A stretch of 43,764 bases of DNA from a virus, in the IMG/VR virus record IMGVR_UViG_3300037069_001238, positions 1 through 43,764 of that record; one strand, given 5' to 3'. Every line of letters begins with the position of its first letter. The first letter of the stretch is position 1. The position numbers were made by a program, and so were the translations under genes. Under the pieces are notes generated by a model that saw only the letters and a list, made by a program, of their open reading frames with translations, was not told the DNA's origin and searched no databases. Positions 5,977 to 37,765 of the stretch are shown piece after piece.

Positions 5977-6837
5977 GTGAACATAACAGAGGCGTTCGCG
6001 GCCTATGACGCTGATGTGCTGTATTGCAACGGCAGCGCCTTAAAGACAAGGAAGAACTATAGGGCCTCCCTCCATTCGTTTGCCCGTTCCGCTGATGATG
6101 AATTGCCCGTGCAGCTTATAACCTATTCCCATATCATCGGCTGGAAACAGTCCATGGCTCAGTTCGGGATGCAGCCCTCAAGCATGGCCTCTAATCTCAG
6201 CCGTTTCCGTGAGGTTATGAAATATCTCAAGAAACACGGCTATGACGTACTCGATTGGCGCGACATAGAGCGCCCTAAGGTGCCCTCAAGAGTCCCCGTG
6301 TGGCTGGATCTTGCGGAAGTCCGTCACTTCCTTGAATCCATCGACAGCCCCCGTGATAGGGCCATATTCGCTTGCCTGTTCGCTTCTGGTGCCCGTATCA
6401 GCGAGTTACTACAGCTTGACAGGGATTCGATTATAAACGGGGAAGCTGAGATTATCGGCAAGGGCGACAAGCCCGGCAAACTGAGCTTTGATGATACCTG
6501 CCTGAGCATCCTCAAGCACTACACCGATAGCCGTACCGACAAGCAGCGCCCCCTGTTCTTAAGCGGCCAACACAGGCGCATTACCGTGTCCAGAGTCGAA
6601 CAGCTATGCCATGAGTACGCTGATAGGGCAGGGATAGATAAGAATGTGACGCCCCATGTCTGGCGCCATACGTTCGCGACCGATCTAAAGAACAACGGTA
6701 TGGATCTATACGACCTCAGCAAGCAGCTCAGGCACTCCCGTCTCAGTTCGACAATGATTTATGTTCACGCTGATGCAAAGAAACAAGCGAATTATCGGCA
6801 ATACCACTCTCCCGTTCCCATCCCTCATGCTTTGTAA
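5977..6837 (+). CDS. int: Tyrosine recombinase / phage integrase, 286 aa
   Basis: Catalyses site-specific integration and excision, presumably at the tRNA-Gln-like attP just upstream. The N-terminal SAM-like core-binding domain covers residues about 1-95. The catalytic domain shows Arg140 (GARISELL), a lysine in the beta-hairpin (GKGDKPGK, about 162-168), His227-x-x-Arg230 (PHVWRH), His253 (LRH) and the nucleophile Tyr262 (MIYVH). At 286 aa it is of the short, XerC/D-like size with no arm-binding N-terminal domain, so arm sites may not be needed. The GTG start at 5977 has GGGGGTAG upstream. Its 3' end overlaps the convergent repressor gene by 95 nt. Confidence 0.93.
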   Translation: MNITEAFAAYDADVLYCNGSALKTRKNYRASLHSFARSADDELPVQLITYSHIIGWKQSMAQFGMQPSSMASNLSRFREVMKYLKKHGYDVLDWRDIERPKVPSRVPVWLDLAEVRHFLESIDSPRDRAIFACLFASGARISELLQLDRDSIINGEAEIIGKGDKPGKLSFDDTCLSILKHYTDSRTDKQRPLFLSGQHRRITVSRVEQLCHEYADRAGIDKNVTPHVWRHTFATDLKNNGMDLYDLSKQLRHSRLSSTMIYVHADAKKQANYRQYHSPVPIPHAL

Positions 6838-7165
6838 GCTCTTTTGCCGTATCGTAGTAACCTAGCATGATGAGCGCATGGGCAAGCAACTGTAAGTCCT
6901 CCTGCGTGGCCGTTTCCGCCGCCCTGAGCGCCCTAGTCGTTATATCACCGCCGTCTATAGGTAGTATCTCTAGCGACCTAGCAGCGTTCGGTACTTTCCG
7001 CAAGTACCCCTTATCAATGAGGCTGTCCACATGCAGCGCTACGGTAGCGGTAGAGTTATAGCCTAATTTATCCATCATCTCGCGGTATGACGGCGTATAA
7101 CCTCGTTTGTTCGTGAAACTGATAATAAACCGCAATAACCGGCTTTGGTACTTTGTTAGGGACAT
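6743..7165 (-). CDS. LexA-type winged-helix repressor without protease domain, 140 aa
   Basis: Residues about 1-68 match the LexA DNA-binding domain in layout: LTKYQSRLLRFI, GYTPSYREMMDKLGY (turn and recognition helix region), ALHVDSLIDKGYLRK and a wing ending in SLEILPI. Normal LexA continues with an S24 self-cleaving protease domain using Ser and Lys; here there are only about 70 helical residues without it. It is a good candidate for the lysogeny repressor or another master regulator. A TATAAT at 7179-7174 puts the transcript start a few bases before the ATG, so the mRNA is probably leaderless, as for lambda cI. It faces, and overlaps, the integrase. Confidence 0.78.
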   Translation of the reverse strand: MSLTKYQSRLLRFIISFTNKRGYTPSYREMMDKLGYNSTATVALHVDSLIDKGYLRKVPNAARSLEILPIDGGDITTRALRAAETATQEDLQLLAHALIMLGYYDTAKELTKHEGWERESGIADNSLVSLHQREHKSLSN

Positions 7166-7173
7166 AAGGGGAC

Positions 7174-7205
7174 ATTATACGCCTAGTGTTAGCATAATAG
7201 TGTAA
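7174..7205 (-). promoter_or_regulatory. Promoter of the repressor gene (leaderless)
   Basis: Consensus -10 TATAAT at 7179-7174 on the minus strand, 8 nt before the ATG at 7165. The -35 is poor (TTACAC at 7205-7200 has a 20-bp spacer), as expected for an activator-dependent or autoregulated repressor promoter. Direct repeats TAGTGT at 7184-7189 and 7199-7204 lie in the promoter and may be operator sites. Confidence 0.6.
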
Positions 7206-9814: not shown

Positions 9815-9843
9815 TATACATGTTCGTAATATGTTCGTATAAT
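9815..9843 (+). promoter_or_regulatory. Promoter of the first rightward unit, with operator in the spacer
   Basis: TATACA (9815-9820), a 17-bp spacer and a perfect TATAAT (9838-9843). The spacer is filled by an exact element in inverse orientation, TGTTC-GTAATA-TGTTC (9821-9836). A protein bound there would block RNA polymerase directly. The first gene downstream is the RHH protein, suggesting autoregulation. Confidence 0.75.
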
Positions 9844-9871
9844 GATATATAAGGAGCATATCTTAACAGGG

Positions 9872-10117
9872 ATGAAAAAGCTTTTAGTAACGCTAGATGA
9901 TGACATGGCTAAGGTGTTAGACAAGTACCCGAATAAGTCTCAAGTCATTCGTGAAGCGTTAAAGATATATAACGAGCATATCTCAACAGATACGATTGAG
10001 GGATTACGCATGTCTTATAAACATCTTCTGAAGAACATGGATGAACACTTCAATCACTATGACGAGTGTTTCGAGCGTATGGATAAGTTAATAAGTGTCT
10101 TAGAAACGAGGATGTAG
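9872..10117 (+). CDS. Ribbon-helix-helix (RHH) DNA-binding protein, 81 aa
   Basis: Residues 1-35 (KKLLVTLDDDMAKVLD, then NKSQVIREALKIYNEHI) have the beta-strand, helix, helix pattern of Arc/MetJ/CopG-type regulators. A helical tail of about 45 residues follows. An upstream ATG at 9842 is in frame but lies inside the -10 box, so translation must begin at 9872. RHH dimers commonly bind tandem short half-sites about one helical turn apart; the phage-wide element has half-sites 11 bp apart and one copy lies in this gene's own promoter. It is therefore a prime candidate for the binder. Confidence 0.78.
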   Translation: MKKLLVTLDDDMAKVLDKYPNKSQVIREALKIYNEHISTDTIEGLRMSYKHLLKNMDEHFNHYDECFERMDKLISVLETRM

Positions 10118-17301: not shown

Positions 17302-20300
17302 ATGAACCCTAGCGCAATGCCGTCATATGACGAGGCAGCCGGTAATCTTTCTAATACGGGGAATGCGGTTGGCAATCTTCGGAATGACATCAACCAACTT
17401 GCGCCCCTTGCCACGACATACCACTCTGTCGAAGCCCCACCCGCTCCAGCCCCCTACATCCCTCAGAAGACCGCTGGACAAGGCTGGCTGCCTGCTTTCT
17501 GGAACAAGGTCACATCTGTCGCCAGCCAGAGCGGGAATCTTGCCGAAGAAGCCGGTTCATGGATAGGCACCCAATTCGGCCATATCGCCAATGATTTCGT
17601 CGGTTTTGGGCAGGGGCTAGGTAACGCCGCTTTCGCTGAAAAACAATCCAGCAGTCTAATGGCCCAAAGCAACACCCTGGATAATCAACTAAACAGTATC
17701 ATGGGGGCGTATAAGAGCGGCCAATTAGATAAGCAGGGGTATATCAAATCGCTCAACGACTGGAGCCAGCAGAACATGAGCCTCCAGAAGCAACTGAGCG
17801 ACTTTCAGAGCCAGACATCAATAGAGCAAAAGAACATGGTGAAATCGGCTATAGGTGTTGGAGTCACCGTCGCGTCTCTATTGGTGGGCGGGGCGGCGGA
17901 AGGGCTGCTAGGGGCTGTCGGCGAAAGACTCGGCGCCGGTTTTACCTCGGGTGCGCTCATTGATGGCAACCTTGCTGCGGCTGCAACTCTCAGCAAATCG
18001 GCGGGACTCGTCCAGGCCGCAAACATCATCGAGCATTTAGCTTCTTCCGAGGCTGATTGGGCTTCTCTTTCCCCCCTAGCCCAGAACGCCATGCGCGTCG
18101 CAACGACCGAAGTGATGGGTGTAGCCAGCGGTGTAGCGACCGGAGGGCAGATTACCCGTGCCGTGGCCGCAGACTTATTACTCAAGTTTCCGCTCTATTA
18201 CAACGCCATGTCTGGCACCGGCAATCAAGTTTATGACGAACTGAACCAGAACAAATACGGCGACGCCGTGAAGACTATCGGTTTCAACGCCGCATTGCTC
18301 TTCTCTGGCGGCCCGATAGGTTGGGGGCTAAAACAGGCCAAGGGCTTGTTCTCTGATGCGGTAGTGGCTATGGGGCTACGCCCCGGAAGTATCCTGGACG
18401 AACTCAGCTCGCGCGTCGGCAACGGCGACAGATTGGCGTTAGGTAAAATCGCCCAGGATCAGATCAGACAGGGCAATACCGCCGACGTGAAAGCCATGAT
18501 TGTCGGGTTGGAAAGCAACCTCCGTGCCGAGAAAGGCAACGCCGCTTCAGCCGTCAACCGTATCACCGACCACTTGTCCAACTACGTCGGCTGGGGCGAC
18601 CTCAAGAATATGACCCACCAAGAAATGTGGGACAACATGGTCAGCTATTGGAAGCATTCCGTAGGTCTCCAAGACCTCAAGGCGCAGGGTAAGATCGAAG
18701 GCATGGCGGCAGATGATACCCGAACCGTCGTACCGGGACGCTTTAGTACCAGAGATAAAAATGGCATAGCTACCGCCGTCACCAAAGGCGATCTCTCTCT
18801 ATCCACTGGCAATCTGGAGGCAGGGAACCAGACAGTACAAGACAGACTCCAGGCATGGGAAAAATACAAGGCCGCCAACCCGAACGCCGCATTCGCTAAT
18901 AACGTCAACGTCGATAAACAGATACAGCACCTCATCACGACAATCCAAGACCCACAGGAACTCCACACGGCCATAAACAACATTGCTACCCAGTTCGGAT
19001 TGAGCGGCATACCCGCCGATTATGCGGCGAAGATGGCGAAGGACGGTTATATTGCGATTGTCCCGACTAGCCACAACCTACCGCTTGCATCGTTCGAGCA
19101 AACGTCAGGCAAGCTTGCCACCAATTCAGTATCGGAAGGCTCCAATTTCTTCACGAAAGCTGCCCAACCCGTGCCGGTATTACAGTCTATCGGCACGATG
19201 CTTACCAAGATGGGTCTGTCTCCCGAAGTTGCCCAACAGCGCGTCCAGGACGTTTTCACGCAGAAGTTCACGGCAGCAGCAGGAGAGTTCGGATTTCTGC
19301 ACCTCCAAGGAGATACAGCAGCCCAGACTGGTCAGGATACTCTCTCTAAACTCTATGATTACATGAAGAACCCGACAGGGGGCATAAAGGTATTCGGGCA
19401 CTACCTCCCTATCACCGATATGCGCCAGATGACAACAGGCGACATACAACGGGCGCTCGGAGTCAATAAGCAGGAGGCGCAGAAAGTGGGCGACGCCATT
19501 ATGCAAGCGTACCTAGACGTTCCGGCTTCGGTGGCAGGGCTTGGTAACAAGATTATGGACGCCAACTTCAAAATAAACCCAACCGCTGGTATCTACACGC
19601 GCATCCAATCGGCCGGGCACTTTACTTGGAACCCCGTATTCACGCAAGCCAGGTTGCCGTATAAGTTGGAAATGCTGGCGCAGATGCAGACAGGCGGCAA
19701 GTTCCCGACCATAGCCGGGACTAACCGTTTTATGTCTATGTTCTTCCCCGACCAGTACAAGGCGCTGAACGACATTATCGACAACCCCGACTTCAGGAAT
19801 CTCGTGGGCGGTGGTATGGGCGGCGAAGCTGATGCTGCCGCTACGGGCGCATTTGCCGACAGAGGTGCTAATTCGCCCCCGAAGACGTCTCTACTGCCTA
19901 TCGCCGGTCTGGTTAAGAGCATGGCGGATAACGCCGGGCTAGATACGGCCACGTTCATGCAACAATTTCCGAATGCCGTCAGCGATGCTACCCACGCACT
20001 GCTTCACTACGACCGCAATAACAGCTTCTTAAACTCACCGCTCGCCAGGACGCTCAATATGGCATTCTTCCCATTCCGCTTCAATGTCAAAGTCTCGTCA
20101 TATATGGCTAACTTCCTCGCTAAGCAGCCTCCGGCTATCCAATACGCCGCCGTTAAGGGGGTAATGAACGCCCAGACCTTCCTGAAGAGTCCCCAGGGAC
20201 AGGCATGGTACGCCCAGCACTCCGACGCGATCACCTTATTCAAGTACCTATCACCCCTGGAGACTATCGGCACCATCTCAGCTGTCCTAACCCACCCCGG

Positions 20301-20832
20301 TAATATATCCTCGTACGGCGAGTTAGGCGGCCTGCCGTTCGGATGGATACCGCAAATGACCGACGCGGTAGGATTGACTCATTTCGCTCAGGCGTATGTC
20401 AACCCGAAGACGGGCGTCATCGCTAAAGATTACGTGCCAACCAGTATGTACGGTGCCATGAACACGGCGCTCCAAGACCTACTAGGCAGCCTATTCTCGT
20501 ATCCAGGTGCAGAGATCGGCCTACCGAGCAAAGGCAGTATAATGCGAGGATTGACGAGTGGGTTGCCTGGAGCTAAGGACACGCAAGCCGTAAACAACCC
20601 CAATCTCACACCGCAAGACCTTCAGTTCTCGCAGATTGCTCGGCAGGCTAATGGAGGAGGATCGGCGCCTGCACCTCAGTCTCCGCAACAGTCCTCACAA
20701 AGCACACAAGTACCCGCACAAAAGTCACCGCTTGAAACGCCTCTTCCAAAGAAGGTAGGTGGCGGAAAACTGAAGAAAGGCCAATTCAAACCGGCATTAC
20801 TACCGGGCCAGTCGCAGTACGGTCAGCTCTAG
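17302..20832 (+). CDS. Very large virion protein, 1176 aa (internal/ejection or tape-measure candidate)
   Basis: Largest protein of the phage. Mostly helical, with a hydrophobic Gly/Ala segment near residues 180-215 (VGVTVASLLVGGAAEGLLGAVG) and further apolar patches near 315-335, and a Pro/Gln/Lys-rich C-terminal tail. It could be a tape measure, but those normally follow the major tail protein; here it precedes the scaffold and capsid genes, a place more consistent with an internal virion protein ejected with the DNA. No lysozyme or transglycosylase motif was recognised. The 3' end abuts the convergent moron cassette. Confidence 0.7.
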   Translation: MNPSAMPSYDEAAGNLSNTGNAVGNLRNDINQLAPLATTYHSVEAPPAPAPYIPQKTAGQGWLPAFWNKVTSVASQSGNLAEEAGSWIGTQFGHIANDFVGFGQGLGNAAFAEKQSSSLMAQSNTLDNQLNSIMGAYKSGQLDKQGYIKSLNDWSQQNMSLQKQLSDFQSQTSIEQKNMVKSAIGVGVTVASLLVGGAAEGLLGAVGERLGAGFTSGALIDGNLAAAATLSKSAGLVQAANIIEHLASSEADWASLSPLAQNAMRVATTEVMGVASGVATGGQITRAVAADLLLKFPLYYNAMSGTGNQVYDELNQNKYGDAVKTIGFNAALLFSGGPIGWGLKQAKGLFSDAVVAMGLRPGSILDELSSRVGNGDRLALGKIAQDQIRQGNTADVKAMIVGLESNLRAEKGNAASAVNRITDHLSNYVGWGDLKNMTHQEMWDNMVSYWKHSVGLQDLKAQGKIEGMAADDTRTVVPGRFSTRDKNGIATAVTKGDLSLSTGNLEAGNQTVQDRLQAWEKYKAANPNAAFANNVNVDKQIQHLITTIQDPQELHTAINNIATQFGLSGIPADYAAKMAKDGYIAIVPTSHNLPLASFEQTSGKLATNSVSEGSNFFTKAAQPVPVLQSIGTMLTKMGLSPEVAQQRVQDVFTQKFTAAAGEFGFLHLQGDTAAQTGQDTLSKLYDYMKNPTGGIKVFGHYLPITDMRQMTTGDIQRALGVNKQEAQKVGDAIMQAYLDVPASVAGLGNKIMDANFKINPTAGIYTRIQSAGHFTWNPVFTQARLPYKLEMLAQMQTGGKFPTIAGTNRFMSMFFPDQYKALNDIIDNPDFRNLVGGGMGGEADAAATGAFADRGANSPPKTSLLPIAGLVKSMADNAGLDTATFMQQFPNAVSDATHALLHYDRNNSFLNSPLARTLNMAFFPFRFNVKVSSYMANFLAKQPPAIQYAAVKGVMNAQTFLKSPQGQAWYAQHSDAITLFKYLSPLETIGTISAVLTHPGNISSYGELGGLPFGWIPQMTDAVGLTHFAQAYVNPKTGVIAKDYVPTSMYGAMNTALQDLLGSLFSYPGAEIGLPSKGSIMRGLTSGLPGAKDTQAVNNPNLTPQDLQFSQIARQANGGGSAPAPQSPQQSSQSTQVPAQKSPLETPLPKKVGGGKLKKGQFKPALLPGQSQYGQL

Positions 20833-21011
20833 CACTCAGATTGTACATAGCATGGGTAAGGAGTCGCATCCGGCTCTGGGTCGTGATAGTTAGCCGCTGC
20901 TATCCACACGATGGCTATGCCTATGATGGCGGCGAAGATAACCTCGCCCCCATGCTCTTCCCACCAGGACTTTTTACCGTCTATCTGCGCCACCAAGACT
21001 TCTCTCGCCAT
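20829..21011 (-). CDS. Moron membrane protein B, 60 aa
   Basis: One hydrophobic segment near residues 24-40 (VIFAAIIGIAIVWIAAA), charged N-terminus and a C-terminal part with two cysteines. It overlaps the 77-aa gene by 31 nt and is antisense to the virion operon, ending against the stop of the 1176-aa gene. Probably co-transcribed with its partner from the promoter at 21225-21253. Confidence 0.7.
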   Translation of the reverse strand: MAREVLVAQIDGKKSWWEEHGGEVIFAAIIGIAIVWIAAANYHDPEPDATPYPCYVQSEC

Positions 21012-21214
21012 TTCTTTAGCCGCTCAGCATCAGTATGGATCCATACCACATAAGATAAATACGCCCATATAGCCAGTCCGAGAACCCCGATAGAACTCCC
21101 CGACCCGTTTCCATTCACCAACACACCGATCAGGTAATTTATTGCTGCTATCGCAAAAAATATTCCAACAATCTGTAGAACAGCATTAGTCTTGCTTATT
21201 ACTTTAGGTTCCAT
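20981..21214 (-). CDS. Moron membrane protein A, 77 aa
   Basis: Starts at ATG 21214, a few bases after the predicted transcript start, so it is probably translated from a leaderless mRNA. Two membrane segments are clear (residues about 12-34 and 40-60) with a basic C-terminal tail (ERLKKWREKSWWRR). A longer frame to 21490 extends past the promoter and is not used. An antisense cassette with its own promoter inside late genes is typical of lysogenic-conversion or superinfection-exclusion genes. Confidence 0.75.
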   Translation of the reverse strand: MEPKVISKTNAVLQIVGIFFAIAAINYLIGVLVNGNGSGSSIGVLGLAIWAYLSYVVWIHTDAERLKKWREKSWWRR

Positions 21215-21224
21215 AATGCCCTCA

Positions 21225-21253
21225 CTTATACACTCTGCTAGCATAACTGTCAA
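21225..21253 (-). promoter_or_regulatory. Consensus promoter of the moron cassette
   Basis: On the minus strand TTGACA (21253-21248), a 17-bp spacer and TATAAG (21230-21225), 10 nt before the ATG at 21214. No GAACA element lies between it and the gene, so it should be active in the lysogen. Confidence 0.88.
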
Positions 21254-21260
21254 CAGGGTA

Positions 21261-21326
21261 AGGGGTTGTTGACTTGTACTGACCAACCCCTCGATAATTA
21301 GAGTAGAGGTGAACATAATACGAACA
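21261..21326 (+). promoter_or_regulatory. Scaffold/capsid-unit promoter with GAACA operator
   Basis: TTGACT (21269-21274), an 18-bp spacer and GATAAT (21293-21298), then GAACA-TAATAC-GAACA at 21311-21326. An inverted repeat AGGGGTTG/CAACCCCT (21261-21268 and 21284-21291) brackets the -35 box and may be a second regulatory site. The promoter diverges from the moron promoter. Confidence 0.78.
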
Positions 21327-21355
21327 CCTAGTAAGCAAGAAAGCGAGAAACAGAT

Positions 21356-21979
21356 ATGGCAGACACACCCGTAAACGGTGAAACTGTTACCCCTGAGGCA
21401 CTCGAAAACAACGCTAATCCAGTTACGACCCCCGCGGTCAACGCAACTGACAACGCCGAAGTCGAACGCCTCAAAAAAGAAACGGAACAAAAAGAGCTAA
21501 GGATTCGTCAACTAGAAAACGAAGCCAATGCCCGCAAAAAAGCCGAAGAAGAGGCCGAAGCTAAACGGCTGGAAGAACAGAACCAATATAAAACTTTGTT
21601 CGAGCAGGAAAAGGCCAAAAGGGAAGCCATCGAAGCCGCCCAAGCCGAAGCCGAACGGACAGCCGCCCTCAAAGCGGAATCCGACAAACTGTTCGCCCAA
21701 TACCCGGAACAAGTCCGTGACCTCGCCCTAGAAGCAGGCATGGCGCTCTCCGATACGGACGAGCAAGCGGTAGAAGCATTCAAGGCAAAACTTGATAAAG
21801 TAAGCAGCCTCGTGAAGCAACCCAAAGTCACGGCTAACAACCCCGGCGAGATGTCTGCCCCAGCGCAGATAGCCCCCCAGGAATTGCACGACCTCATGAA
21901 AGACCCGATGAAGTTCCAGGATTACCTCAAAAAGAATAACCCCGGCATCGCTTCCATGATGAACAAGACAGCCGAATAA
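21356..21979 (+). CDS. Scaffold protein, 207 aa
   Basis: Acidic, highly charged protein with one long coiled coil (residues about 25-115, rich in Glu, Lys, Arg and Ala) and a short C-terminal domain ending in a helix (ELHDLMKDPMKFQDYLKKN). This, and its place right before the major capsid gene, are characteristic of assembly scaffolds, which guide capsid formation and leave before DNA packaging. No protease motif is seen. Confidence 0.82.
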   Translation: MADTPVNGETVTPEALENNANPVTTPAVNATDNAEVERLKKETEQKELRIRQLENEANARKKAEEEAEAKRLEEQNQYKTLFEQEKAKREAIEAAQAEAERTAALKAESDKLFAQYPEQVRDLALEAGMALSDTDEQAVEAFKAKLDKVSSLVKQPKVTANNPGEMSAPAQIAPQELHDLMKDPMKFQDYLKKNNPGIASMMNKTAE

Positions 21980-25938: not shown

Positions 25939-25995
25939 TTTACAACTTTGTAATCGAGAGTTATATTGCAGATAGTAAGTGTTCGTAATTTGTTC
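25939..25995 (+). promoter_or_regulatory. Glycosylation-unit promoter with inverse GAACA operator
   Basis: TTTACA (25939-25944), a 17-bp spacer and TATATT (25962-25967), then TGTTC-GTAATT-TGTTC at 25980-25995 (the element on the other strand). Position relative to -10 matches the other units although the orientation is reversed, which argues for a DNA-level rather than RNA-level element. Confidence 0.75.
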
Positions 25996-26428: not shown

Positions 26429-28813
26429 ATGCCAAATATGCCGCAAACACCACGAGCGGGGAACGCCATGCCTGTGAAACTAGCTCTCGCCATGATTGTC
26501 AAAGGGTCGGATGACGAGGCTGACCACCTCAAGCACTGCCTCACCAATGTCGCCCCATACGTGGACGGCATTTTTCTTAATATCAACACCAAGCCAGGGC
26601 ACAAGCCATCGGCAAAACTGATGCGTATCGCCAAGAGTTTCGAGGCGAACATTATCACGACGGAGTGGCACGACAACTTTGGAGAAGCGCGGAACGCAAA
26701 CCTCGACCAGATACCAGAGTTCTTTACATGGTGTATTTGGTGCGACACAGATGACACAATCGACAACCCGGAAAAGCTGAAAGAAGTGGCGCAGTCCTGC
26801 CAGAACTACGACGTGGTCATGGCCGATTACCTGTATGACACCGATGAAGAAGGCAACCCAACGGTTATCCATATGGTCGGCCGCATGTTCAAGAACAACG
26901 GCTCACAGGTTTGGAAAGGTAGAATACACGAAACGTTGATAGACACCCGTGCCTCCTCCCGTGCCGCCACCAAGGACTTTACCGTTATCCACCACGCCGA
27001 GAACGAACGCAAGGAGCGGAGCTTGGAGCGGAATATCAAGCTGCTCAAGGCGGAATTAGAAGACGAGGGGAATACCCCCGATCCCCGCACCCTCTACTAC
27101 CTAGGCAACACCTACCTCGACTACGGGGACTACGAGAACGCCAAGTTACTGTTAACCACCTACTTAGGTTTATCTGGCTGGGACGAGGAGCGCTGCGGCG
27201 CCGAGACGAAGCTGGGCCGTATCTACCTACAGGAGAACAACCACCTCGAAGCCAAGCGTCACTTCATGCTGGCTATCGGCGAGGACAACAGCGATCCCGA
27301 GCCGAGGGTGGAGATGGGGAGTTTGGAACTGGAGCTTAAGCAATTCCATAAAGCCCGGCGGTGGCTGGAAGAAGTGGAAAAGATGGAGCTGTCGCCCGGC
27401 GTCCTGGAACGCTGCCCCCTGACGACCACTTTCCGCACCTACCTGTTGCTGGCCGATACCTACGTCAACCTGGGCGGTTCGTTCTTAGAAAAAGCCCTGG
27501 TCTATGCCAAAAAAGCCGCCAAGTATAAGAAGAAGAACAAGCACATCAAAGAGTACGTGCAGATGATTGAGGGCGTCTTGGAGCAGAAGCGCCTGACCGA
27601 GTGCGTGGTTGAACTGGTTAAGCGCCTCAAGACCGACAAAGAAGACGACAAAGTAAAACCCTTGCTGGAAGCCCTGCCGAAAGTCCTAGAGGATAACCCT
27701 CTGATTATCCGTATGCGTGATACCGAACCGTTCGACTGGCCGGAGAAGTCCATAGTTATCTTCTGCGGTAACTCGGCCGATGAGTCGTGGGGGCCATGGA
27801 GTTTAGAGACGGGCATCGGCGGATCAGAAGAGGCGGTCATCCGATTAAGCAAACACCTCACCACCCAAGGGTATAAGGTGGTGGTCTATGCGAAACCAAT
27901 GGAACGAGCCGGGTTCATCGACGGCGTTATGTGGCGCAACTATTGGGAAGCCAACTTAAACGACAACTTCGACATCTTCATCGGCTGGCGTAATCCTGGC
28001 TTATTCGACCGGAAGTTCAGCGCCCATAAGACGTACTTATGGATGCACGATGTCGCTTCTGGCGGAGAGTTCACCAAGGAACGCCTCAGCCACATTACTA
28101 AGGTTATTCTGTTAAGCCAGTACCACCGTTCGCTTTTCCCGATGATACCCGACGAGCAAGTATTATTAAGCGCCAACGGCGTCGACCCCGAACAGTTTAC
28201 GCTATTCGACGGCACGGTAGAGCGTGACCCGCACAAGGTTTTCTACGGCTCCTCCCACGTCAGGGGATTACAGAACCTATACGATATATGGGAAGACGTG
28301 CGTAAGGCAGTCCCCGACGCCACATTAGATGTCTACTACGGACGTGGTACATACGACACCATCAATGCAGGGAACCCTGAACGGCTGAAATGGATGGACA
28401 ATATCCAGCAACGGGCCAAAGAACTGCCCGGCGTGACCGACCACGGCAAGGTAGGGCAAGATGAACTCGTAAGGCATATGTTTGAAAGCGGTGTGTGGGC
28501 TTACCCATGCCCATTCCCTGAGATATACGCGATTACCGCAGTCAAAGCTCAAGCCGCAGGATGCATCCCCGTGTGTACTGATTTTGCCGCACTCAATGAA
28601 ACGGTACAGTTTGGGTCGAAGTTACATATTCAGAGCGAGAATGGCAGTGGTATCATCGATGATCGCTTTATCGAAGATTACAAAAAGGCACTCATAGACA
28701 TACTCCTAGACCCCGAAAAGCAGGAAAGCCAACGTCGTAAAATGATGGAGTGGGCGAGGACTAACTCATGGGAAAGTGTGGCGTCCCAATGGGCAGTGGA
28801 ATTCGAGGCATGA
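26429..28813 (+). CDS. Two-domain glycosyltransferase, GT2 - TPR-like - GT-B, 794 aa
   Basis: Residues about 15-130 are a GT-A (family 2, SunS/TPR-associated) domain: LALAMIVKGSDD, EWHDNFGEARNANLD and the metal-binding DTDD (106-109). Residues about 215-410 are TPR-like helical pairs (LYYLGNTYLDYGDYENAK, LGRIYLQENNHLEAK). Residues about 440-794 are a GT-B domain of the GT4 type: TGIGGSEEAVIRLSKHL in the N-lobe, then CPFPEIYAITAVKAQAAG, the donor-site E...E region. One protein could add two sugars in succession. Likely targets are virion proteins encoded around it or host surface glycans. A second ATG at 26468 is possible as start. Confidence 0.87.
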   Translation: MPNMPQTPRAGNAMPVKLALAMIVKGSDDEADHLKHCLTNVAPYVDGIFLNINTKPGHKPSAKLMRIAKSFEANIITTEWHDNFGEARNANLDQIPEFFTWCIWCDTDDTIDNPEKLKEVAQSCQNYDVVMADYLYDTDEEGNPTVIHMVGRMFKNNGSQVWKGRIHETLIDTRASSRAATKDFTVIHHAENERKERSLERNIKLLKAELEDEGNTPDPRTLYYLGNTYLDYGDYENAKLLLTTYLGLSGWDEERCGAETKLGRIYLQENNHLEAKRHFMLAIGEDNSDPEPRVEMGSLELELKQFHKARRWLEEVEKMELSPGVLERCPLTTTFRTYLLLADTYVNLGGSFLEKALVYAKKAAKYKKKNKHIKEYVQMIEGVLEQKRLTECVVELVKRLKTDKEDDKVKPLLEALPKVLEDNPLIIRMRDTEPFDWPEKSIVIFCGNSADESWGPWSLETGIGGSEEAVIRLSKHLTTQGYKVVVYAKPMERAGFIDGVMWRNYWEANLNDNFDIFIGWRNPGLFDRKFSAHKTYLWMHDVASGGEFTKERLSHITKVILLSQYHRSLFPMIPDEQVLLSANGVDPEQFTLFDGTVERDPHKVFYGSSHVRGLQNLYDIWEDVRKAVPDATLDVYYGRGTYDTINAGNPERLKWMDNIQQRAKELPGVTDHGKVGQDELVRHMFESGVWAYPCPFPEIYAITAVKAQAAGCIPVCTDFAALNETVQFGSKLHIQSENGSGIIDDRFIEDYKKALIDILLDPEKQESQRRKMMEWARTNSWESVASQWAVEFEA

Positions 28814-36055: not shown

Positions 36056-36382
36056 ATGCCAACTAAAGACTTTAACTTCGAGAGCTACGCCATCCAACAG
36101 CTAGACGCCATCAACAAGAAACTGGACGGTTTAAACGTACAATACATGCCCCGCGAGGAGATTTACCTTCGTCTGACGGAAGTAATGAAAACACTCGCTA
36201 CTTTGACCGATACGGTTGCCCAGCACACCAGCCTGTTGAGCGCCCTGAAGTCTACCGACGACAAGCAGCAAGGTTCGATAGACGCCTCTCGCCGTACAGT
36301 AACGACCGGCTGGACAATCGCAGGGCTTCTACTTACCAGCCTGTTTATATACGTCTCCTGGCGAGTGGGTGCAGGGAGATGA
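36056..36382 (+). CDS. Coiled-coil membrane protein, 108 aa (lysis region)
   Basis: Residues 10-75 are helical with heptads (YLRLTEVMKTLATLTDTVAQH); a single C-terminal membrane segment follows (TIAGLLLTSLFIYVSW, about residues 85-102). This layout resembles holin-associated or XhlA-like proteins placed before lysis genes. Confidence 0.62.
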   Translation: MPTKDFNFESYAIQQLDAINKKLDGLNVQYMPREEIYLRLTEVMKTLATLTDTVAQHTSLLSALKSTDDKQQGSIDASRRTVTTGWTIAGLLLTSLFIYVSWRVGAGR

Positions 36383-36714
36383 ACTTCAGCGACAGATCAG
36401 CCGACAAGATGAAACGGGCTATGGCGACTTGGACGGCTCTTTTCTCCATGCTGTTCTTCATTCTTGCCTGGATTCTTATGCGTAACGTGCTCCAGATACC
36501 ATTGGACAATCCCCAACTGACTATTCTCAATCTTATATTATCCTCTCTTGCCGGCCTCCAGTGCTTCATTCTCCTCATAGCCGCCAAACGGGGAGAAGCC
36601 CAAAACGAACTGCTCGTTACCAAGATCGCTCTTGAGACTGACGAGATAGACGCGCTTATTAAGGAAAATACTGAACTAACTAAAGCTATCCATGCGTTAG
36701 TGAGTAAAACATGA
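36379..36714 (+). CDS. DUF1003-like membrane protein, 111 aa
   Basis: Two membrane segments (about residues 17-36 and 49-68) and a charged helical tail (ETDEIDALIKENTELTKAI). The pattern ...W...N.L..P.DNPQLTILNLILSSLAGLQ... is like DUF1003 inner-membrane proteins. In a lysis module it may be a holin or antiholin. ATGA overlap on both sides. Confidence 0.68.
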   Translation: MNFSDRSADKMKRAMATWTALFSMLFFILAWILMRNVLQIPLDNPQLTILNLILSSLAGLQCFILLIAAKRGEAQNELLVTKIALETDEIDALIKENTELTKAIHALVSKT

Positions 36715-36934: not shown

Positions 36935-37765
36935 ATGGCAATTACCTTTAAGGACATCAGCTACGCGCAGGGTGTCTATAACATGGCGGCGAACACCGAC
37001 CCGATGGTAATGATGAAGGCGTCAGGGTTTTACACTGGCAGCCTCCAGCCCTACATTGACGCCCAACTCGACCGCAACTACGCCGATGCGCTGCAATGCC
37101 ACAAGATACCGTTCATGTACCACTTCTTCGTGCCAGCAGTTGACCCTCTTGTACAAGCTGCGTGGTTCCTGCGCTGCGTTATGCCTTTGGCAGTCGGTGA
37201 CGGCTACGCCCTCGACGTTGAGATAGACGGCGTGGACTTAGTGAATAAAGTACTGGCCTTCGTTACGGAACACCACAGCAGTACGGGTTGTTACCCGTGG
37301 GTCTACCTTGACCGCTCACTGCGCCAGAAGTACGACTGGACGCCTGTCTTTGCCCTCTGTAGCGAGTGGATTGCTGCTCCAGATATATCCTTTGACGCCA
37401 ATATCCCGAACGTGGGCGTGTATGTCGCCCAGCAAGGCCCCATCGTCAACGGGGTAGACACCGATGAGTTTTTTGGGTCGCTCGATAGTCTTAAAAAGTA
37501 CACCTACCAAGGAGTACAGGAGGTTACGAATGTTCCTACGCCAACTAATCCGACGCCATCGCCAGAAGCGCCTGCGCCAAGTCAACCAGCGGTTACGCCA
37601 CCTGTACCCCCTGCACAACCTGACCTACAAACACCTCCACCAGTTGTTCCGCCTCAAGCGCCAACAGGAGAAGTTACACCGCCAGCTCAGCCAACGAAAC
37701 CGCAAAACCAGAGCCTTCTTGCGCTGGTTCTAGCCTTCATTAAGAGATTACTCAGGATTAAATGA
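36935..37765 (+). CDS. GH25-type lysozyme (endolysin), 276 aa
   Basis: FKDISYAQG at residues 5-13 and LDVEIDG with acidic pair Asp94/Glu96 match the catalytic signature of GH25 muramidases, which cleave peptidoglycan between MurNAc and GlcNAc; YHFFVPA...QAAWFLR and VDTDEFFG complete the barrel pattern. A Pro-rich linker (about residues 205-255) ends in an amphipathic hydrophobic-basic tail (LALVLAFIKRLLRIK) that may bind membrane or act in place of a cell-wall domain. Confidence 0.85.
   Translation: MAITFKDISYAQGVYNMAANTDPMVMMKASGFYTGSLQPYIDAQLDRNYADALQCHKIPFMYHFFVPAVDPLVQAAWFLRCVMPLAVGDGYALDVEIDGVDLVNKVLAFVTEHHSSTGCYPWVYLDRSLRQKYDWTPVFALCSEWIAAPDISFDANIPNVGVYVAQQGPIVNGVDTDEFFGSLDSLKKYTYQGVQEVTNVPTPTNPTPSPEAPAPSQPAVTPPVPPAQPDLQTPPPVVPPQAPTGEVTPPAQPTKPQNQSLLALVLAFIKRLLRIK

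Follow-up and report, generated by a model that had tools for sequence, protein, structure and literature searches.

Within the virion genes of an uncultivated virus, two short overlapping open reading frames (ORFs) are read against the late operon, and the question that this locus raises is whether the pair is real and, if so, what it could do for the phage. The virus corresponds to IMG/VR record IMGVR_UViG_3300037069_001238, a 43.8-kb sequence analysed over its whole length of 43,764 nt and called the window hereafter. Besides a tyrosine integrase and a LexA-like repressor, it encodes an SU10-type capsid protein, an SPP1-type tail component and a GH25 endolysin, and from this gene content it is read as a temperate siphophage. 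A preliminary description had interpreted the pair as a membrane-protein moron cassette with its own promoter, active when the rest of the phage is silent and serving superinfection exclusion or another form of lysogenic conversion. The features of the window on which the discussion rests are the following:

5977-6837: tyrosine integrase
6743-7165, minus strand: LexA-like repressor gene
17302-20832, plus strand: virion-module gene for a 1176-aa protein, left boundary of the slot
20791-20806, minus strand: weak terminator-like hairpin just beyond the P60 stop codon, within the 3' end of the 1176-aa gene
20829-21011, minus strand: P60 (60 aa), ATG at 21011, stop codon ending at 20829
20981-21214, minus strand: P77 (77 aa), ATG at 21214, stop codon ending at 20981
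21225-21253, minus strand: cassette promoter, TTGACA-17-TATAAG, divergent from the scaffold promoter
21269-21298, plus strand: scaffold promoter, TTGACT-18-GATAAT, right boundary of the slot
21311-21326, plus strand: element GAACATAATACGAACA, of the form GAACA-N6-GAACA, which belongs to the scaffold promoter and not to the cassette
21356-21979, plus strand: scaffold gene, right flank of the slot, with a weak PHROG head scaffolding match
36379-36714: DUF1003 membrane gene, candidate holin, adjoining the endolysin gene
36935-37765: GH25 endolysin

Both membrane ORFs were found where they had been described, antisense to the late operon, and the coordinates agree with a cassette flanked directly by the 1176-aa gene and the scaffold promoter. 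P77 and P60 overlap by 31 nt, and P60 also overlaps the final 4 nt of the 1176-aa gene. When the 523-nt gap was shuffled 2000 times and searched for ORFs with a strong membrane segment, one of at least 60 aa appeared in 0.25% of the shuffles and one of at least 77 aa in 0.05%; two such ORFs together were seen in 0/2000. The codon usage of P77 is atypical for the phage (its synonymous score falls below 97% of chance antisense ORFs) and its GC content is 44%, versus 52-55% in the neighbouring genes. P60 has a good overall codon score, within the top 4% of chance antisense ORFs, and a GC content of 54%, like the flanks. The frame of P77 is open upstream across the promoter, to 21490, so the call of its start codon depends on the promoter.

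P77 is predicted to be a helical-hairpin membrane protein, with membrane segments at residues 15-33 and 41-59, a basic C-terminal tail and both ends in the cytoplasm; AlphaFold2, run on the single sequence, gave helices at 8-34 and 40-76 (pLDDT 75, pTM 0.39). P60 is predicted to cross the membrane once and to expose an acidic extracytoplasmic tail, DPEPDATPYPCYVQSEC, which ends in C-x5-C; its AlphaFold2 model, based on two sequences, consists of one helix at 2-41 (pLDDT 74, pTM 0.37). The models are in agreement on the helices, and their pTM values are low. Searches of Pfam, NCBIfam, PADLOC, PHROGs, PDB and phage/plasmid records gave no match for either of them, in line with the earlier remark that they resemble no familiar family. 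A near-repeat, AAGTC(T/C)TGGTGG (window 20955-21003, minus strand), is read in two frames and gives KSWW in both proteins, C-terminal in P77 and close to the N-terminus in P60; it is possibly a short duplication.

The cassette promoter is composed of TTGACA (21253-21248), a 17-nt spacer and TATAAG (21230-21225), an 11/12 match to the consensus; the window contains 2 such sites versus 0.45 expected. The standard promoter scan skipped it because that scan demands a -10 box ending in T. TATAAG lies 10 nt from the ATG of P77, with GAGG located 5 nt upstream of this codon, and the expected 5' leader of the cassette mRNA is about 3-4 nt long. The first gene had been considered probably leaderless; near-leaderless is a fair term for it, and the layout is like that of the phage's own repressor gene (TATAAT, 8 nt, ATG). 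In the latter (window 7165-7185, minus strand) there is no Shine-Dalgarno sequence, and the repressor mRNA is probably leaderless. Related to the other end of the cassette, the number of terminator-like hairpins found in the window, including the weak one at 20806-20791, is not above the shuffle expectation.

Late promoters are marked by a different signature. Allowing one mismatch at most, GAACA-N6-GAACA is found at 11 sites in the window versus 2.2 expected, and at late promoters it begins 10-12 nt past the -10 box (13503, 21311, 30229 and 35090; reversed at 25980). This element is probably a DNA operator. One copy (9821-9836, minus strand) lies inside the promoter spacer ahead of the gene at 9842-10117, whose product reads as a ribbon-helix-helix-like protein and is perhaps the protein that binds the operator. 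The element is also present at window 9124, and its sites occur in both orientations. The cassette promoter region (21200-21300) contains no GAACA half-site, the one nearby being at 21178, within P77, and the repressor promoter has no GAACA element either. At the level of sequence, the promoter and its lack of a GAACA element are both as first described, and consequently the cassette should be transcribed while the late promoters are off, which supports an expression independent of the late genes.

Relatives were sought in viral contigs by means of capsid, portal, terminase and 1176-aa gene searches. Five records share the gene order of the window, namely G001 (L090), G002 (L089), G003 (L088), G005 (L092) and G006 (L095), and a sixth, G004, ends short of the slot. 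No relatives of the terminase or of the 1176-aa protein were found in 50,697 phage records, nor of the portal or terminase in 84,980 bacterial and archaeal genomes. The 1176-aa protein (17302-20832), encoded between portal and scaffold, has no family match; it shows 26-35% identity in the five relatives, and the scaffold protein is 38-40% identical in G001-G003 and G006. Promoter-like sequences at the position of the scaffold promoter are also found in G002, G005 and G006. The counterparts of the 1176-aa protein range from 1130 to 1516 aa, the C-terminal part being conserved. A purine-rich leader (AAGAAAGNGAGAAAC-like; window 21330-21355) precedes the scaffold start codon, replacing a canonical Shine-Dalgarno sequence, and it is conserved at the corresponding place in L088, L089, L090, L092 and L095.

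From the big-gene stop codon to the ATG of the scaffold gene, the distance is 524 nt in the window, 178 in G001, 240 in G002, 527 in G003, 101 in G005 and 92 in G006. The slot is empty in G006, where the big gene has its stop codon overlapping the -35 box of the scaffold promoter, and in G005, where the big gene ends about 20 nt ahead of that promoter. The other three relatives carry different cargo:

G001, L090 17079-17230, antisense: 34-aa ORF with one membrane segment
G002, 28052-28192, sense: P46, a 46-aa membrane ORF
G003, L088 13135-13405, minus strand: antisense unit with promoter TTGACT-17-TACTAT

The G003 unit comprises a stretch of about 200 nt with a more stable fold than its shuffles (z = -2.95), followed by a terminator made of a strong hairpin and a U-rich tail. 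It may be an RNA gene (a possible new small RNA) or a leaderless 33-aa ORF; the search for RNA families in the window and its relatives gave no match. The start of the G001 ORF adjoins a palindrome, CCATAGACTATGG, which also occurs within the likely divergent scaffold promoter. In the four occupied slots (window, G001, G002 and G003) a -10 box lies 6-10 nt before the slot ORF. As a rule for every slot ORF this was rejected, given that the boxes of G001 and G003 match at 4/6 positions, a level seen at 20-32% of all ATGs; the -10 box alone is notable in the window and G002 only, and a good -35 box accompanies it in the window and G003 only.

The comparison with relatives that had been suggested as a check thus showed a cassette that is not conserved throughout. 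The slot, variable among six phages with common flanks, is very probably a cargo (moron) site: the cassette is present in one phage and missing at the same place in its relatives, and it has, at the sequence level, its own promoter (11/12). As for a terminator of its own, the window has the weak hairpin, and a clear one is found only in the G003 slot.

P60 does not stand alone, and an antisense orientation is not a requirement, as a probable relative, P46, is found in sense at the same slot of G002. The C-terminal 35 residues of the two proteins can be aligned without a gap, up to the final one, with 31% identity; the similarity is short, and the alignment score is 45 versus 26.6 ± 6.7 for block-shuffled sequences (P = 0.017). 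When either protein is compared with 11,697 ORFs, the other is among the highest-ranked matches, with weak E-values (1.5-1.7). A C-terminal C-x3-S-[D/E]-C followed by the stop codon is found in 2 of the 11,697 ORFs, P60 and P46, a count that overstates its weight somewhat because the motif was spotted in these proteins before counting. Taken with the common slot location, the tail motif makes common descent likely; hence the P60 gene is probably real and independent of orientation. Other matches were discarded: that of P60 in L003 is just a KKSWWEEH stretch within a 695-aa portal-like protein and is attributed to chance, and those of P46 to photosystem PsbI reflect membrane-helix similarity and fall below the cut-offs. 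No relatives of P77 were found in viral contigs, in the whole records of the relatives or in phages.

The relatives also bear on lifestyle. Searches for a tyrosine integrase, a serine recombinase and a LexA-like repressor were negative in all five; they were positive for the integrase and LexA-like domain of the window and for each family in control genomes. The five records may be incomplete, but four of them are 42-45 kb, the size of the window. Among the six records, integrase and LexA-like repressor are thus found in the window only, and slot cargo is nonetheless present in 3/5 relatives, so cargo in this slot also occurs in phages that apparently do not integrate. The lysogeny module of the window may be a separate acquisition. 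With regard to lysogenic conversion, the accessory, self-promoted nature of the cassette stands, but it is not safe to confine its role to the lysogen, since three apparently non-integrating relatives carry cargo. Exclusion can serve virulent phages too, so that exclusion or host takeover gains weight and lysogenic conversion loses it.

Several known systems resemble the cassette in part. A gene that runs antisense to prophage lytic genes under a promoter of its own is a characteristic form of moron locus (PMC7067206). STMMW_20121-type genes of Salmonella ST64B have this arrangement, and their expression was shown by RNA-seq; they belong to a different phage, and the likeness is one of arrangement. 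Membrane-protein morons such as HK97 gp15 block DNA injection, and gp15, Sie2009 and Ltp are membrane-protein exclusion systems that bar the DNA of other phages from entry (summarised in PMC10883804). Like the cassette, gp15, a predicted inner-membrane protein, is a predicted membrane-protein moron of a long-tailed temperate phage, but it is a single gene, whereas the cassette is an overlapping pair of putative function. Database searches revealed no relationship of P77 or P60 to known superinfection-exclusion families, gp15 not having been aligned directly. The RexAB-like defence of Butters, Sbash and CarolAnn (PMC7542560) also involves two adjacent prophage genes and a membrane component; nevertheless, it combines a cytoplasmic sensor with a four-span protein, while P77 and P60 are both predicted to be small membrane-spanning proteins, with two spans and one, respectively.

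From the ORFs, the promoter sequence, the variable slot and the probable relative of P60, all of them observed, we infer expression, topology, a complex and exclusion as follows. The sigma-70-type promoter, lacking GAACA, would be transcribed while the late promoters are off, giving a near-leaderless mRNA from which P77 would be made as a membrane hairpin with both ends inside; coupled translation would then yield P60, a single-span protein with its tail outside and able to close the C-x5-C disulfide. Both proteins would form a small membrane complex that blocks the DNA entry of other phages, in which the outer tail of P60 would meet the incoming tail or channel and P77 would anchor P60. Such a two-protein membrane moron, excluding other phages at the membrane, is the favoured model, at somewhat below an even chance, and superinfection exclusion as the function of the cassette is proposed with slightly less assurance still. 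The atypical codons of P77 and its lack of relatives count against it, as does the absence of a convincing terminator past P60; the other slot cargos (a 34-aa peptide and an RNA-like unit of about 200 nt) give no single common function.

The same proteins could instead act on the host's envelope, its membrane potential or its division, as a moron or host-takeover pair in lysogenic or lytic growth without phage exclusion. This is a possible explanation of distinctly lower probability: a P60-type protein occurs in G002, without integrase or LexA-like repressor, and small membrane proteins have many possible targets, but nothing specific, family match included, indicates which. It is improbable that the cassette is a toxin-antitoxin-like or addiction module, in which a peptide or an antisense RNA would be the partner of a small membrane toxin. 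The slot peptides, hydrophobic, short (34-60 aa) and under their own promoters, would suit it, as would the structured, terminated G003 unit; on the other hand, there was no RNA family match and PADLOC was blank. A two-span protein paired with a one-span protein would be an unusual layout for such modules.

Equally improbable is that the antisense transcript itself is the effector, acting as antisense RNA or by promoter interference on the big gene or the scaffold. STnc6030 of prophage BTP1, an antisense RNA transcribed in the virion region that causes superinfection exclusion, is a precedent (PMC7067206), and the cassette converges on the 1176-aa gene with only a weak terminator, next to the example of the RNA-like unit in G003. 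However, the cassette is protein-coding, with two long membrane ORFs that are unexpected by chance, the fold of its transcript is no more stable than that of shuffles (z = -0.07), and the G002 cargo is in sense. That the ORFs arose by chance in a non-coding gap would agree with the codon usage of P77 and its lack of close relatives, and is rated slightly lower again, considering the shuffles, the strong promoter directly upstream of the pair and a P60/P46 tail motif unique to two ORFs at one slot. Least probable is a late lysis accessory (antiholin or spanin-like) outside the lysis cluster: one- and two-span proteins of small size would fit, but holins and antiholins are late-expressed genes beside the endolysin, and the cassette is antisense to the late operon, distant from the endolysin and without a late promoter element. 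The candidate holin adjoins the endolysin, so lysis is covered outside the cassette, and a 62-aa membrane ORF is encoded there too.

Returning to the favoured exclusion model, P60 and P46 could conceivably found a new family of membrane-tethered exclusion proteins, with a short anchor and an extracytoplasmic tail that a C-x3-S-[D/E]-C ring closes at its C-terminus, in a siphophage clade whose slot is refilled with small membrane genes or RNAs under their own promoters, on either strand and in integrating phages or not; this broader proposal is speculative. Antisense self-promoted genes amid lytic genes are an arrangement already known, and what appears to be new is the unnamed protein family and the clade-wide cargo slot, in a clade set apart from the phage records searched by its terminase and its big virion protein. 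Prophage-encoded resistance to phages has one of its sources in morons with membrane products, many of which family searches miss. The comparison of six phages pinpoints a slot repeatedly filled with small self-promoted genes, and thus a place to seek exclusion factors.
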